Shown: positions 39,881 through 44,326 of the stretch, one piece after another
Position numbering within the stretch: the first letter of the stretch is position 1
Layout of the letters: the number at the start of each line of letters is the position of its first letter
Assembly: GCF_004698125.1 (NCBI RefSeq)
Contig: NZ_ML214297.1
Coordinates: 1,116,001 to 1,180,000, forward strand
Direction of reading: 5' to 3'
Length of the DNA: 64,000 nt
Origin: Halosimplex halophilum
GTDB taxonomy: Archaea; Halobacteriota; Halobacteria; Halobacteriales; Haloarculaceae
Program-made: the position numbers and the translations under genes
The notes under the pieces: model-generated
The model's input: only the letters and a program-made list of their open reading frames with translations
The model's database searches: none
Told to the model about the DNA's origin: nothing

Positions 39881-40921
39881 CTACGGCGTGATGACGGCGC
39901 GGCCGTCGATCTCGCCGTGTTCGAGCCGTTCGGCGACGGTGTTGATCTCGCCGAGGTCGTAGCGGCTGGTGTGGAGGTCGACCTCGTCGCGCTCGACCAG
40001 CGCGACCAGCTCCTGCAGTTCGGTGAACCGGCCGACGATGTTGCCCTGGTAGGCGAACTCGCCGTTGACGAGCGCCTGCGAGGGCTCGTGGATGTGGCCG
40101 CCGTAGCCGACGATCTGGTGGTCGCCGCCGGCGGCGACGATGTCGGGCGCGAGCGCGGTCGTCTCGTCGGCGCCGACGAAGTCGAGCACCTGCTCGGCGC
40201 CCGCGCCGTCGGTGAAGTCGTCGACGACCGCGGGCACGTCCTCGCTCGTCGGGTCGACGGTCAGGCGGGCGCCCAGGTCCTCGGCGAGGTCGCGGGCCGA
40301 CTCCTTGAGGTCGACGGCGACGATGTCGGCGGCGGACATCGCGTCGAGACACTGGAGGCCGATGTGGCCGAGACCGCCGACGCCGACCACGACCGCTGTG
40401 TCACCGGGGTTCAGGTCGGCGACGGCCCGCTTGGCGGCGTGGTAGGCGGTGATCCCGGCGTCGGCGTGGGGCGCGATGTCCGCGGGGTCGACCCCGTCGG
40501 GTAGCGGGACGACCGATCGCTCGCCGGTCTGGAGGTACTCGGCGAACCCGCCGTCGACCGTGAGGCCGTTGAACGCCTGGTTCTCGCAGTACATCGTCTC
40601 GCCCTCGCGGCAGGCCCGGCAGACCCCGCAGGTCTGGACGGGGTGGCAGACCACCCGGTCGCCGGGTTCGACCGTCCGCACGTCGTCGCCGACCTCTACG
40701 ACGGTCCCGGCGTTCTCGTGGCCGAGCGTCAGCGGGAGCTCTTGGTCGACGTAATCGGTCCACATCCCCTCGATGATGTGGTTGTCCGTCTGGCACCAGC
40801 CCGCGCCCTCGACCTCGACGACCACGTCGTCGCCCGCCGACACCTCGGGACGGTCGATCTCCTCGACGGTCAGCCCGTTCGCCATGTCCTCGGTGTACTC
40901 GTGGAGTCTGGCAGCGCGCAT
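39881..40921 (-). CDS. adh: Zinc-dependent NAD(P) alcohol dehydrogenase
   Basis: 346 residues of the MDR family. The catalytic zinc ligands C43 (GWCQTDNH), H68 and E69 (GHEN) are present, and the structural zinc cysteines are C98, C101, C104 and C112. The Rossmann motif VVVGVGGLGHIGLQ begins near residue 185. It should interconvert an alcohol and aldehyde/ketone with NAD(H) or NADP(H). A TATA-like TTTAAC about 28 bp upstream on the reverse strand suggests a leaderless transcript. It is divergent from the ferredoxin stub. Confidence 0.92.
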   Translation of the reverse strand: MRAARLHEYTEDMANGLTVEEIDRPEVSAGDDVVVEVEGAGWCQTDNHIIEGMWTDYVDQELPLTLGHENAGTVVEVGDDVRTVEPGDRVVCHPVQTCGVCRACREGETMYCENQAFNGLTVDGGFAEYLQTGERSVVPLPDGVDPADIAPHADAGITAYHAAKRAVADLNPGDTAVVVGVGGLGHIGLQCLDAMSAADIVAVDLKESARDLAEDLGARLTVDPTSEDVPAVVDDFTDGAGAEQVLDFVGADETTALAPDIVAAGGDHQIVGYGGHIHEPSQALVNGEFAYQGNIVGRFTELQELVALVERDEVDLHTSRYDLGEINTVAERLEHGEIDGRAVITP

Positions 40922-40999
40922 GGACGACGGTACGGACGAGAGCCGGTTAAATCCGGGCGCCGCCCCAAACTATATTGGTTTTTCATTATAATTGCCGCC

Positions 41000-41281
41000 A
41001 TGCCCACGCTCCAGTGCGGCGACCGGTCGCTCGACTGTGACCGCGGCGAACTGCTCCGCGACGAGTTCATCGACGAGCGGACCGACCGGGAGTTCGGTCC
41101 CGGTCGCGAAGTCGGCGGGGGATACGGCGTGTCGGCAGTCGCGTTCGGGCGCCGGGGGAGCAGTCGCCCGTGGGAAGACGGCAGCGGGGCGGTCGCGCCG
41201 TCGGACGGCGGGGAGCGCGACGACCGGGGCCACGACGGTCCCCAGCGGTGGACGCCCAGCCCGTCGGAGGGCGACGGCTGA
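41000..41281 (+). pseudogene. Truncated 2Fe-2S ferredoxin-like remnant
   Basis: The first ~22 residues, MPTLQCGDRSLDCDRGELLR, look like the start of haloarchaeal 2Fe-2S ferredoxins (MPT-x-E-Y-G-D-x-S-x-x-C-x-R-G-x-x-L-R). After that the frame (93 codons) loses similarity and lacks the cysteine cluster (C-x4-C-x2-C). The other two frames also show no cluster. So this is probably a broken ferredoxin gene or a new small protein that kept its beginning. A TATA-like ACTATATTGG (40970-40979) about 27 bp upstream suggests that its promoter remains. Confidence 0.4.
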
Positions 41282-41325
41282 GACGGCCGGAACCGCGGGC
41301 GGAGCGCCCGTGGCGATGACGTAAG

Positions 41326-41336
41326 AGTTATTTTCG
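41326..41336 (+). promoter_or_regulatory. TATA-like element of the valS leader transcript
   Basis: AGTTATTTTCG with its centre about 27 bp upstream of the ATG at 41358. If it is the promoter, transcription begins at or just before that ATG, so the 28-codon leader ORF is leaderless, whereas valS itself has a leader of about 248 nt. Confidence 0.4.
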
Positions 41337-41357
41337 AGCCTCGTCCACTCTCTACCG

Positions 41358-41444
41358 ATGACAGGGCCGTTCGACGGAGCCGCCGCTCGCGCCGCGAACG
41401 AGCCCCGGCTGTCCGTAGCCGCCGTACGTGTAGGGGCTCCCTAG
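41358..41444 (+). CDS. Putative valS leader peptide with three GTA valine codons
   Basis: A 28-codon frame begins MTGPFDGA and ends SVAAVRVGAP. All three of its valines are encoded by GTA (41415-41417, 41424-41426, 41430-41432), within 6 codons of each other. In the neighbouring valS gene valine is written almost always as GTC (with some GTG), so this is striking. The last GTA lies in the 5' arm of a strong hairpin that follows. Placed before a valyl-tRNA synthetase gene, this resembles an attenuation leader peptide in which ribosome stalling at Val codons senses charged tRNA-Val. There is no homologue known to me; translation is unproven. Confidence 0.45.
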   Translation: MTGPFDGAAARAANEPRLSVAAVRVGAP

Positions 41445-41452
41445 CCCCACAC
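41428..41452 (+). promoter_or_regulatory. Hairpin at the end of the valS leader ORF
   Basis: Left arm GTGT (41428-41431), bulged A, then GGGGCT (41433-41438); loop CCCT; right arm AGCCCC (41443-41448) then ACAC (41449-41452). The total is 10 base pairs with one bulge. The right arm's AGCCCC also occurs at 41401-41406, so GGGGCT could pair with either copy, as in antiterminator/terminator switches. No U-tract follows, so termination would have to be of another kind, or control may be translational. Confidence 0.6.
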
Positions 41453-41510
41453 CACCCCCATTCTGACCTCCGCGTTCGCACCGTTCGACGACCGGCCGAC
41501 AGACAGACCG

Positions 41511-41609
41511 ATGTACGACACCACGATACCGACCGACAGCACGCACCGCCCGACAGCCGCCGCGCTCGGACCCCGAGCGCGCCCGACCGCCGGGAGTGAG
41601 CAGCGATGA
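41511..41609 (+). CDS. Second small ORF overlapping the valS start
   Basis: A 32-codon frame, MYDTTIPTDST to TAGSEQR, ends with a TGA that overlaps the valS ATG (ATGA). The sequence is Thr/Pro/Ala/Arg-rich and has no family. If translated, it would couple valS translation to ribosomes coming from the leader. It may be chance; the 33-codon length is modest. Confidence 0.3.
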   Translation: MYDTTIPTDSTHRPTAAALGPRARPTAGSEQR

Positions 41610-44326
41610 GCACCGACAGCGACGCCGGGGACGCCGACGGCCCCGACGCTCGCGAGGACGACGGCGCGCTCCCCGGCGAGTACGAGCCCGACGAGGTCGA
41701 GTCGAAGTGGCAGCGCCGCTGGGTCGAGGAGGACACCTACGCCTACGACCGCGAGGCCGCCCTCGACGCCGACACGGCCTTCAGCATCGACACGCCGCCG
41801 CCGACCGTCTCGGGCGACCTCCACATGGGTCACCTCTACCAGTTCACGCTGCAGGACTTCGTCGCCCGCTACCACCGGATGGCCGACCCGGCCGTCTACT
41901 TCCCGTTCGGCTACGACGACAACGGCATCGCCTCCGAGCGGCTCACCGAGCGCGAACTGGGCATCCGCCACCAGGACTTCACCCGCCGGGAGTTCCAGGA
42001 GAAGTGCCGCGAGGTCTGTACCGACTACGAGGCCGCCTTCACCGACGACGTTCAGTCGCTCGCCGTCTCCGTCGACTGGGACAACACCTACAAGACCATC
42101 GAGCCGCGGGTCCAGCGCATCTCCCAGCTCTCCTTCATCGATCTGTACGAGCAGGGCCGGGAGTACCGCCAGCGCGCGCCGACCATCTGGTGCCCCGACT
42201 GCGAGACCGCCATCTCGCAGGTCGAACAGGAGGACGAGGACAAGCACACGAAGTTCAACGACATCCACTTCGACCTCGTCGAGACCGGCGAGGGGCCGGC
42301 CGACGAGGACGCGACGTTCACCATCTCGACGACCCGGCCGGAGCTGCTGCCGGCCTGCGTCTCCGTCTTCGTCCATCCCGACGACGAGGACAACCAGCAC
42401 CTCGTCGGCGGCACCGCGCGGGTCCCCATCTTCGGCCAGGAGGTCCCCATCATCGAGGACGAGCGCGTCGACATGGAGACCGGCAGCGGCATCGTCATGT
42501 GCTGTACGTTCGGCGACCAGACCGACATCGAGTGGTACCAGGCCCACGACCTCCCCCTCAGGATCGCCATCGACGAGTCGGGCACGATGACCGACCTCGC
42601 CGGCGACTACGAGGGCATGTCCACCGAGGAGGCCCGCGAGGCGATCATCGACGACCTCGACGACGCGGGCGCGCTCGTCGAGAGCCGCAACCACGAGCAC
42701 ACCGTCCAGGTCCACGAGCGCTGCGAGACCGAGGTCGAGTACCTCGTCACCGAGCAGTGGTACGTCGAGATGCTCGACAAGACCGACGAGTACCTGGCGG
42801 CCGGCGAGGAGATGGACTGGTACCCCGAGAAGATGTTCACCAGGTACCAGCACTGGATCGAGGGCCTGGAGTGGGACTGGTGTATCTCCCGCCAGCGCGA
42901 CTCCGGGATCCCGATCCCCGTCTGGTACTGCGACGACTGCGGCGAGACGGTCATGGCCCGCAAGGAGGACCTCCCCGTCGACCCCCTCTCGGACGACCCG
43001 CCGGTCGATAGCTGTCCGGAGTGCGGCGGCAGCGACTTCCGCCCCGAGGAGGACGTCTTCGACACCTGGGCCACCTCGTCGCTGACCCCGCTGGTCAACG
43101 CCGGCTGGGACTGGGACGCCGACGCCGAGGAGTTCACGATGGAGCGGCCGGAGCTCTACCAGTTCGACCTGCGGCCGCAGGGCCACGACATTATCTCCTT
43201 CTGGCTGTTCCACACCGTCGTCAAGTGCTACGAGCACACCGGCGAGGTCCCCTTCGAGAGCGTCATGATCAACGGGATGGTCTTGGACGAGAACCGCGAG
43301 GCCATGTCCAAGTCGAAGGGCAACGTGATCCCCCCGGAGGAGGTCACGGCGAACTTCCCGGTCGACGCCGCCCGCTACTGGGCCGCCGGCACCTCCATCG
43401 GCGACGACTTCCCCTACAAGGAGGGCGACCTGGAGGCCGGCGAGCGCCTGCTCCAGAAGCTCTGGAACGCCTCGCGGCTCATCGACCAGCTGACGGGCGA
43501 GCCCGGGAGCATCGAGCGGCCGGCCGACGAGGACCTGGCGGCCGTCGACCGCTGGATGCTCGCCGAGCTGGACGACGCCGTCGCCTCCCTGACCGAGCAG
43601 TTCGAGGCCTACGAGTTCTCGAAGGCCCGCAACGAGCTGCGGTCGTTCTTCTGGAACAGCTTCTGCGACGACTACCTGGAGATCGCGAAACAGCGACTGG
43701 ACGACGCCGACGGCGGCGCGGACGCCCGCTCGACGGAGTACGCGCTGCTGACGGCCCACCAAACCTTCCTGAAGCTGTTCGCTCCCTTCCTCCCGCACGT
43801 CACGGAGGAACTGTGGCAGCGCCTCTACGCGGACGACGGCGACGGGCTGGACTCCATCCACACGACGGACTGGCCGGAGACGCGGGGCTACGAGGCCGAC
43901 CTGGCGGCCGGCGAGACGGCGATGGAGGTCATCGCCGCGCTGCGCCGCTACAAGACCGACAACGGGCTGGCGCTCAACGCCGACCTCGACCGCGTCCAGG
44001 TCTACGGCACGATTGCGGGCTTCGAGGACGCCGTCGCCGAGGCGATGCACGTCGCCGAGCTTGAGACGCTCGACGAGGCGCCCGAGGTCACCACCGAGGT
44101 CACCGGCGTCGATCTGGACTACTCGCTTGTCGGCCCCGAGTACGGCAGCGAGGTCGGCGACATCGACGCCGCCATCGAGAGTGGTGAGTTCGAGGAAGTC
44201 GACGGGAAACTCCACGTCGCCGGCGTCGAACTCGACAGCGAGATGTACGAGATCGAGGAAGAGCGGACGTATTCGGGCGAGGGCGAGATGATCGAGACCG
44301 AGTCGGCGGTCCTCATCGTCGGCTGA
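41606..44326 (+). CDS. valS: Valyl-tRNA synthetase
   Basis: 906 residues, class I synthetase that charges tRNA-Val. The HIGH motif is HMGH at 73-76 within IDTPPPTVSGDLHMGH. The editing (CP1) domain covers about 200-370 with TISTTRPELLPACVSVFVHP. The KMSKS motif appears as MSKSK at 567-571. An anticodon-binding helical domain and a short tail finish the protein. An in-frame TGA at 41597 fixes the start near 41606, and a GGGAG sequence 9 bp before it may be a ribosome-binding site. It has an unusually long upstream leader with small ORFs and a hairpin. Confidence 0.97.
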   Translation: MSTDSDAGDADGPDAREDDGALPGEYEPDEVESKWQRRWVEEDTYAYDREAALDADTAFSIDTPPPTVSGDLHMGHLYQFTLQDFVARYHRMADPAVYFPFGYDDNGIASERLTERELGIRHQDFTRREFQEKCREVCTDYEAAFTDDVQSLAVSVDWDNTYKTIEPRVQRISQLSFIDLYEQGREYRQRAPTIWCPDCETAISQVEQEDEDKHTKFNDIHFDLVETGEGPADEDATFTISTTRPELLPACVSVFVHPDDEDNQHLVGGTARVPIFGQEVPIIEDERVDMETGSGIVMCCTFGDQTDIEWYQAHDLPLRIAIDESGTMTDLAGDYEGMSTEEAREAIIDDLDDAGALVESRNHEHTVQVHERCETEVEYLVTEQWYVEMLDKTDEYLAAGEEMDWYPEKMFTRYQHWIEGLEWDWCISRQRDSGIPIPVWYCDDCGETVMARKEDLPVDPLSDDPPVDSCPECGGSDFRPEEDVFDTWATSSLTPLVNAGWDWDADAEEFTMERPELYQFDLRPQGHDIISFWLFHTVVKCYEHTGEVPFESVMINGMVLDENREAMSKSKGNVIPPEEVTANFPVDAARYWAAGTSIGDDFPYKEGDLEAGERLLQKLWNASRLIDQLTGEPGSIERPADEDLAAVDRWMLAELDDAVASLTEQFEAYEFSKARNELRSFFWNSFCDDYLEIAKQRLDDADGGADARSTEYALLTAHQTFLKLFAPFLPHVTEELWQRLYADDGDGLDSIHTTDWPETRGYEADLAAGETAMEVIAALRRYKTDNGLALNADLDRVQVYGTIAGFEDAVAEAMHVAELETLDEAPEVTTEVTGVDLDYSLVGPEYGSEVGDIDAAIESGEFEEVDGKLHVAGVELDSEMYEIEEERTYSGEGEMIETESAVLIVG

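Follow-up and report, generated by a model that had tools for sequence, protein, structure and literature searches.

Leader ORFs with pathway codons abutting a conserved hairpin upstream of valS and ilvB in haloarchaea: a candidate ribosome-mediated attenuator

The valyl-tRNA synthetase gene (valS) in the DNA analysed here (a 64-kb stretch, in the following the window) is preceded by a short, probably leaderless ORF with Val codons, the last of which stands directly against a hairpin that takes in the stop codon. Translation of this leader probably senses amino-acid supply in the manner of a ribosome-mediated attenuator (probability about 0.83), a reading that comes from the comparison of sequences. 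The same device, with Ile-Val codons, is found before ilvB across haloarchaea, which makes it probable that these organisms sense amino-acid shortage through ribosome stalling. The preliminary description had proposed that stalling on a leaderless leader peptide with Val codons controls valS. This core idea is strongly supported by the comparison, since the Val codons, the frame, the stop, the hairpin and the position of the promoter recur from family to family, and ilvB carries Ile-Val codons; from these we infer the regulatory effect itself. The features of the region are as follows.

41321-41334, plus strand: BRE/TATA-like promoter element of the leader transcript, predicted from A+T peaks
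41358-41444, plus strand: leader ORF of 28 codons; frame, Val codons and stop are conserved in 63 valS leaders
41415-41417, 41424-41426 and 41430-41432, plus strand: putative regulatory Val codons GTA; the hairpin GTA is invariant in valS and ilvB leaders
41433-41448, plus strand: core hairpin GGGGC/GCCCC, supported by covariation; the TAG (41442-41444) extends into the 3' arm
41445-41464, plus strand: G-free tract ending in ATTCT, terminator-like in base composition; the first G is at 41465
41511-41609, plus strand: second small ORF (32 codons); its stop and the start of valS share the overlap ATGA, which may couple their translation
41562-41580, plus strand: local hairpin GCGCTCGG-ACC-CCGAGCGC ahead of the valS start; its conservation within Halosimplex is no more than partial
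41606-44326, plus strand: valS, the presumed controlled gene, an ORF of 906 aa with relatives in every genome searched

The leader ORF translates as MTGPFDGAAARAANEPRLSVAAVRVGAP followed by the stop, with the C-terminal end V-R-V-G-A-P. It had been described as a 28-codon ORF at 41358-41444 with three valines, all GTA, and this reading holds: the GTA codons at 41415, 41424 and 41430 are all the Val codons it has. On both strands of the 64-kb window it is the sole ATG-started ORF of 10-40 codons with at least three GTA. The distance from 41358 to the valS ATG at 41606 is 248 nt, in agreement with the leader length given before. The Val codons of valS itself, previously reported as GTC/GTG, are almost exclusively GTC (56 of 58), with GTG and GTT once each and GTA not at all. 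The TATA-like element noted ahead of the leader ORF was found as TTATTTT at 41328-41334. Across the 63 valS leaders the A+T maxima lie 36 to 34 and 29 to 27 nt before the leader ATG, with similar positions in 67 ilvB leaders; no A+T peak of this kind is present upstream of the valS or ilvB gene ATGs in the same sets. This BRE/TATA spacing is as expected of a leaderless haloarchaeal transcript, and the leader ORF therefore probably begins the mRNA, with the transcript start at its ATG.

The window belongs to a Halosimplex-type genome, whose nearest named relatives are species of Halosimplex. The valS loci were taken from 80 contigs and 40 whole genomes, and their leaders were read. The core GTA-GGG-GCN-NNN-TAG-CCCC, in frame with a short ORF, stands upstream of valS in several haloarchaeal families; its carriers are Halosimplex, Halomicrobium, Haloarcula, Halomicroarcula, Halovenus, Halorhabdus, most Natrialbaceae and some others. 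In each of the 63 non-redundant valS leaders that carry the element, the ORF ends 12 nt past the GTA, with TAG or TGA as the stop, or, in the Haloarcula group, 21 nt past it. Members of that group have lost the TAG from the arm and have an in-frame stop three codons further on, and in one species (locus L092) the loop is one base longer, the stop is TGA and the frame is kept. The element is missing at valS in many of the haloarchaeal families compared and was not present in either Haloferax genome checked (H. gibbonsii and H. elongans); judged by these loci, it is lineage-specific within haloarchaea. In the last eight codons of Haloarculaceae-type leaders, the hairpin GTA left aside, GTA accounts for 45 of 62 Val codons; in valS coding sequences it accounts for 48 of 3609 (about 55-fold enrichment in the leaders). 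The extra Val codon of Natrialbaceae leaders is mostly GTT, likewise rare. The tRNA-Val genes in the genome have the anticodons UAC, GAC and CAC, and decoding of GTA presumably depends on the UAC tRNA, which would be a minor species.

Some valS loci deviate from this pattern. Haloterrigena sp. H1 and Natrinema hispanicum DSM 18328 (loci L016 and L019) carry a palindromic insertion of about 100 bp, TATCAGGGCGGACGTAACG...TTACGTCCGCCCTGATA, in the valS leader; it is located at the hairpin GTA and disrupts the leader. At loci L103 and L106 nine-codon ORFs with Val-Val as GTAGTA (MYRSPVVRV and MALMSSVVR, each followed by the stop) are found upstream of a divergent valS of the other haloarchaeal type, about 41% identical, and do not have the same hairpin.

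The hairpin itself had been placed at 41428-41452 and is present there, with the extended stem GTGT-A-GGGGCT / AGCCCC-ACAC and the last GTA (41430-41432) directly against GGGGCT-CCCT-AGCCCC. Its strength alone is unremarkable: about 200 comparable GC-rich 6-bp stems occur on one strand of the window (70% GC), so that its significance is decided only by comparative conservation. In 27 diverse sequences 97.0% of the cells are paired, against 86.9% after shuffling, and the covariation score is 0.239 against 0.069, a value reached in 0 of 500 shuffles; slid controls scored lower. In a set of 127 distinct segments, pairing holds for 627 of 635 cells; shuffled sets average 607 and reach at most 617. 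Natural arm swaps that keep both pairing and frame were seen at valS as GGGCC/GGCCC (loci L051 and L100) and as GGCCC/GGGCC (Halosegnis, the Halorarius-like L024 and one more genome). The conserved part of the hairpin is 5 bp, and the loop is variable. Conserved Val codons and compensatory changes in the hairpin, which the preliminary description had named as possible support to be sought upstream of valS in related haloarchaea, are thus both present across several families.

Of 394 Halobacteriales genomes covered by a pattern scan, 212 contain the element, usually with one or two matches per genome and very often with exactly two; matches to the reversed control pattern were much less frequent. 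The sites are valS and/or ilvB at nearly every locus examined, the second site being ilvB, the gene for the acetolactate synthase large subunit, with one chance-like exception (L111). In the present genome the ilvB leader, MRPTAGGEAFELPSSGALRAIVGAP, lies between a leuA-family gene and ilvB-ilvN-ilvC-leuC-leuD, names assigned from sequence motifs and gene order. A hairpin-bearing 19-mer is identical between the valS and ilvB loci of this genome. The codons before the shared GTA differ by gene: at -1, 68 of 72 ilvB leaders but 0 of 63 valS leaders have Ile, and at -2, 49 of 63 valS leaders have Val. Over the last eight codons, Ile makes up 20% in frame and 0% in the other frames of ilvB leaders, and Val 21% in frame and 4-6% in the other frames of valS leaders. 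IlvB acts in the synthesis of both valine and isoleucine, so the Ile-Val codons match the gene that would be controlled. A generic hairpin with stop, GGGGCNNNNTAGCCCC, searched so as to admit other codons before it, gave hardly any site beyond valS and ilvB in the 8 and 10 genomes searched; the pattern GTAGTAGGGGNNNNNNGCCCC, searched at class level, gave 9 matches and was uninformative.

A further leader was found in Halosimplex before ileS2, the second isoleucyl-tRNA synthetase gene, where it reads MTRHRVPAAAVSIIAPSGA or MTRHVVPAATIIIAPSGA, followed by the stop, in six genomes. Here Ile-Ile(-Ile) codons immediately adjoin another hairpin, (C)GCCCC-GTCA-GGGGC(G), after which the stop comes. 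The architecture is that of valS and ilvB with another sequence and another amino acid, and a like function is predicted. A leader ORF with codons that match the pathway is thus found in all three cases, Val at valS, Ile-Val at ilvB and Ile at ileS2. The leuS gene and the main ileS have no leader of this kind in the six genomes checked. At loci L253 and L254 the ileS2 leader stop is followed by CTCGGGGCACGACGG, which is able to pair with a TCGTGCC further on and whose GGGGC repeats one arm of the hairpin; a second structure is possible.

The proposed mechanism is as follows. Transcription would start at the ATG of the short leaderless ORF, as indicated by the promoter position. The ORF ends in Val-x-Val-Gly-Ala-x-stop, the last Val being always GTA, and GGG GCN NNN with TAG and CCCC make up the GC-rich hairpin, which shows covariation. 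When charged tRNA-Val is plentiful, the ribosome would reach the stop and depart, the hairpin would form ahead of the G-free, T-ending tract, and transcription would end early or the gene would be silenced otherwise. When charged tRNA-Val is short, the ribosome would stall with GTA in or near the A site and cover the 5' arm, and with folding prevented, valS would be expressed, as the codon spacing suggests. The ribosome covers roughly 11-13 nt beyond the A site, and with GTA or the codon one or two earlier in the A site, much or all of the 5' arm would be masked. The putative regulatory codons, at -2 and 0 for valS and at -1 and 0 for ilvB, lie in the range that direct blocking would require.

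The preliminary description had also noted a second AGCCCC at 41401-41406 and suggested that GGGGCT pairs in two ways. The copy exists and is kept in most Halosimplex leaders; the switch is not supported. The longest upstream complementarity to the 5' arm is below expectation, at 4.65 nt for valS (5.63 shuffled) and 5.11 nt for ilvB (5.75 shuffled), and a mutually exclusive antiterminator was rejected because the arm has no conserved alternative partner in valS or ilvB leaders. The design departs from the classical two-structure switch: a stalled ribosome that blocks the hairpin directly is a better fit than two-way pairing, and the ribosome itself would antiterminate.

As the output step, transcription termination is slightly favoured. 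The covarying hairpin precedes a G-free tract whose T run is short. At +20 to +31 from the G of GTA, the share of G is 1.6% in valS leaders and 4.1% in ilvB leaders, compared with about 33% upstream, and at +30 to +36 T makes up about 39%, against about 16% upstream. Intergenic termination sites of Haloferax volcanii are marked by a T stretch and a TC dinucleotide, a motif with which the G-free, T-ending tract is compatible, and one hairpin tested in a reporter terminated 59% of transcripts (PMC7237163). A terminator-like role of hairpin and tract is plausible, although the T run is short.

With the same sensor, stalling could instead control translation initiation of valS through the second ORF or a structure at the start codon. 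This output is the less probable one and the main, tentative alternative to termination. An ORF overlapping the valS start as ATGA is present in Halosimplex and Natrialbaceae, a stem over the SD-like GGGCGGTGA near the valS start is conserved in Natrialbaceae, and the shortness of the T run past the hairpin also speaks for control of translation. The Haloarcula group, however, has neither feature and yet keeps leader and hairpin, and the G-free, T-ending tract directly after the hairpin is common to valS and ilvB. A translational layer in some clades is possible. The Natrialbaceae counterpart of the ORF at 41511-41609 ends in a conserved RRRPxRAVRA. Also, in Natrialbaceae valS leaders (L014, L022 and L047 among them), GTTTCGACGGATGTATTGT and the next 40 nt, 3' of the hairpin, are far more conserved than their surroundings; together with the SD stem this segment hints at an extra or different output step.

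The palindrome GGGGC-N6-GCCCC might serve a transcription factor of branched-chain amino-acid genes as its DNA operator, with the ORF incidental; in favour of this, valS and ilvB have the identical inverted repeat, which is nearly confined to them in the genome. This is very unlikely: GTA and TAG share a frame and lack symmetry, the repeat comes after Ile/Val codons that differ by gene, lost stops are restored in frame, the arm swaps alter the half-sites and keep the pairing, and the repeat at ileS2 is a different one. It is no more credible that valine, ValRS or uncharged tRNA-Val binds a structured RNA in which the ORF is incidental, even though the hairpin is conserved as RNA with covariation and T-boxes are frequent at bacterial synthetase genes, since conservation is limited to the 5-bp hairpin with its variable loop, and the codon pattern is frame-specific and unlike between valS and ilvB. 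Rfam also gave no match: a scan with Rfam 15 of 40500-42000, up to E=5, returned sub-threshold chance matches only and no T-box. Arrest by the nascent peptide, with the C-terminal VxVGAx stalling the ribosome from the exit tunnel, is the least likely of all, for the RNA sequence GTAGGGGC dictates the V-G-A conserved in most leaders, there is wide variation in the last residue and in the upstream residues, and arm-swap variants have V-G-P.

The preferred reading, sensing by stalling in the leader, has relatives among bacterial systems. In attenuation of the E. coli trp/ilv/his type, stalling on a leader peptide with pathway codons sets downstream read-through by alternative hairpins; the haloarchaeal leaders, in contrast, have one hairpin, immediately next to the putative regulatory codons, and probably lie on a leaderless mRNA. 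The T-box riboswitches of synthetase genes in bacteria recognise uncharged tRNA by direct binding, for which no ORF is required; the likeness is a synthetase gene that would be controlled by tRNA charging, and the difference is that a T-box match is absent at the valS leader. Actinobacterial ilvB leaders (Corynebacterium, Mycobacterium, Streptomyces) have a short ORF with Ile/Val/Leu codons that overlaps a candidate terminator hairpin (PMC1262725). The haloarchaeal ilvB leaders resemble them in such an ORF and hairpin and differ in having no long U tract like that of the poly-U terminators, in being archaeal, in the stop codon inside the 3' arm and in the use of one hairpin for valS and ilvB. 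The Corynebacterium ilvB-II motif, a conserved uORF rich in branched-chain amino-acid codons, with lengths divisible by three, controls ilvBNC through a terminator/antiterminator pair (PMC10272879), whereas no antiterminator is detectable in the haloarchaeal leaders.

Taken as a whole, valS, ilvBNC-leuCD and ileS2 would form a haloarchaeal attenuator family of leaderless mini-ORFs with a single hairpin that contains or abuts the stop and is antiterminated by the stalled ribosome. This reading is considered fairly probable; the family would be the first amino-acid-responsive, ribosome-mediated attenuation described in Archaea, the mechanism having been described so far from bacteria, and its design would be simpler than the bacterial one with two hairpins. 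A literature search, with most subscription journals outside its reach, found no described case of leader-peptide attenuation in archaea, including haloarchaea. Archaeal transcription is described as promoter-controlled, and one elongation study gives promoter recruitment as the only known target of regulation (PMC8448881). If the reading is true, archaea use translation-transcription coupling to sense amino-acid supply, in more than half of the sampled Halobacteriales genomes. The leaders would then provide a natural sensor of valine and isoleucine charging and would let such coupling, as well as hairpin-dependent termination, be readily assayed in archaea, with one hairpin and different codons at two genes as a built-in specificity control.

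Some minor observations concern genes related to or near ilvB. Loci L165 and L117 have a second ilvB-like gene with a Val-Phe-Val leader (..SPVFVGAA, followed by the stop), which resembles the valS leader of Natrialbaceae and not the Ile-Val type. At the leuA-family gene beside ilvB (same contig, about 1079.8k, minus strand), a short ATG-started ORF (MS...R-V-L-P-G...) overlaps the LeuA-type frame at the highly conserved GAGTTCTTCCAGGG in six genomes (loci L289, L290, L291, L292, L293 and L294). The LeuA frame (..VEFFQGTL..) is +1 to the short ORF, and its own ATG is mostly missing; the overlap is a candidate for a programmed +1 frameshift (CUU-CCA) or an unusual start. A second leuA-like gene of the HMGL family (L295, L296, L298 and L299) has a similar short ORF with the conserved GAGGATAGAGGAAGTCG; this ORF overlaps the upstream part of that gene's frame.
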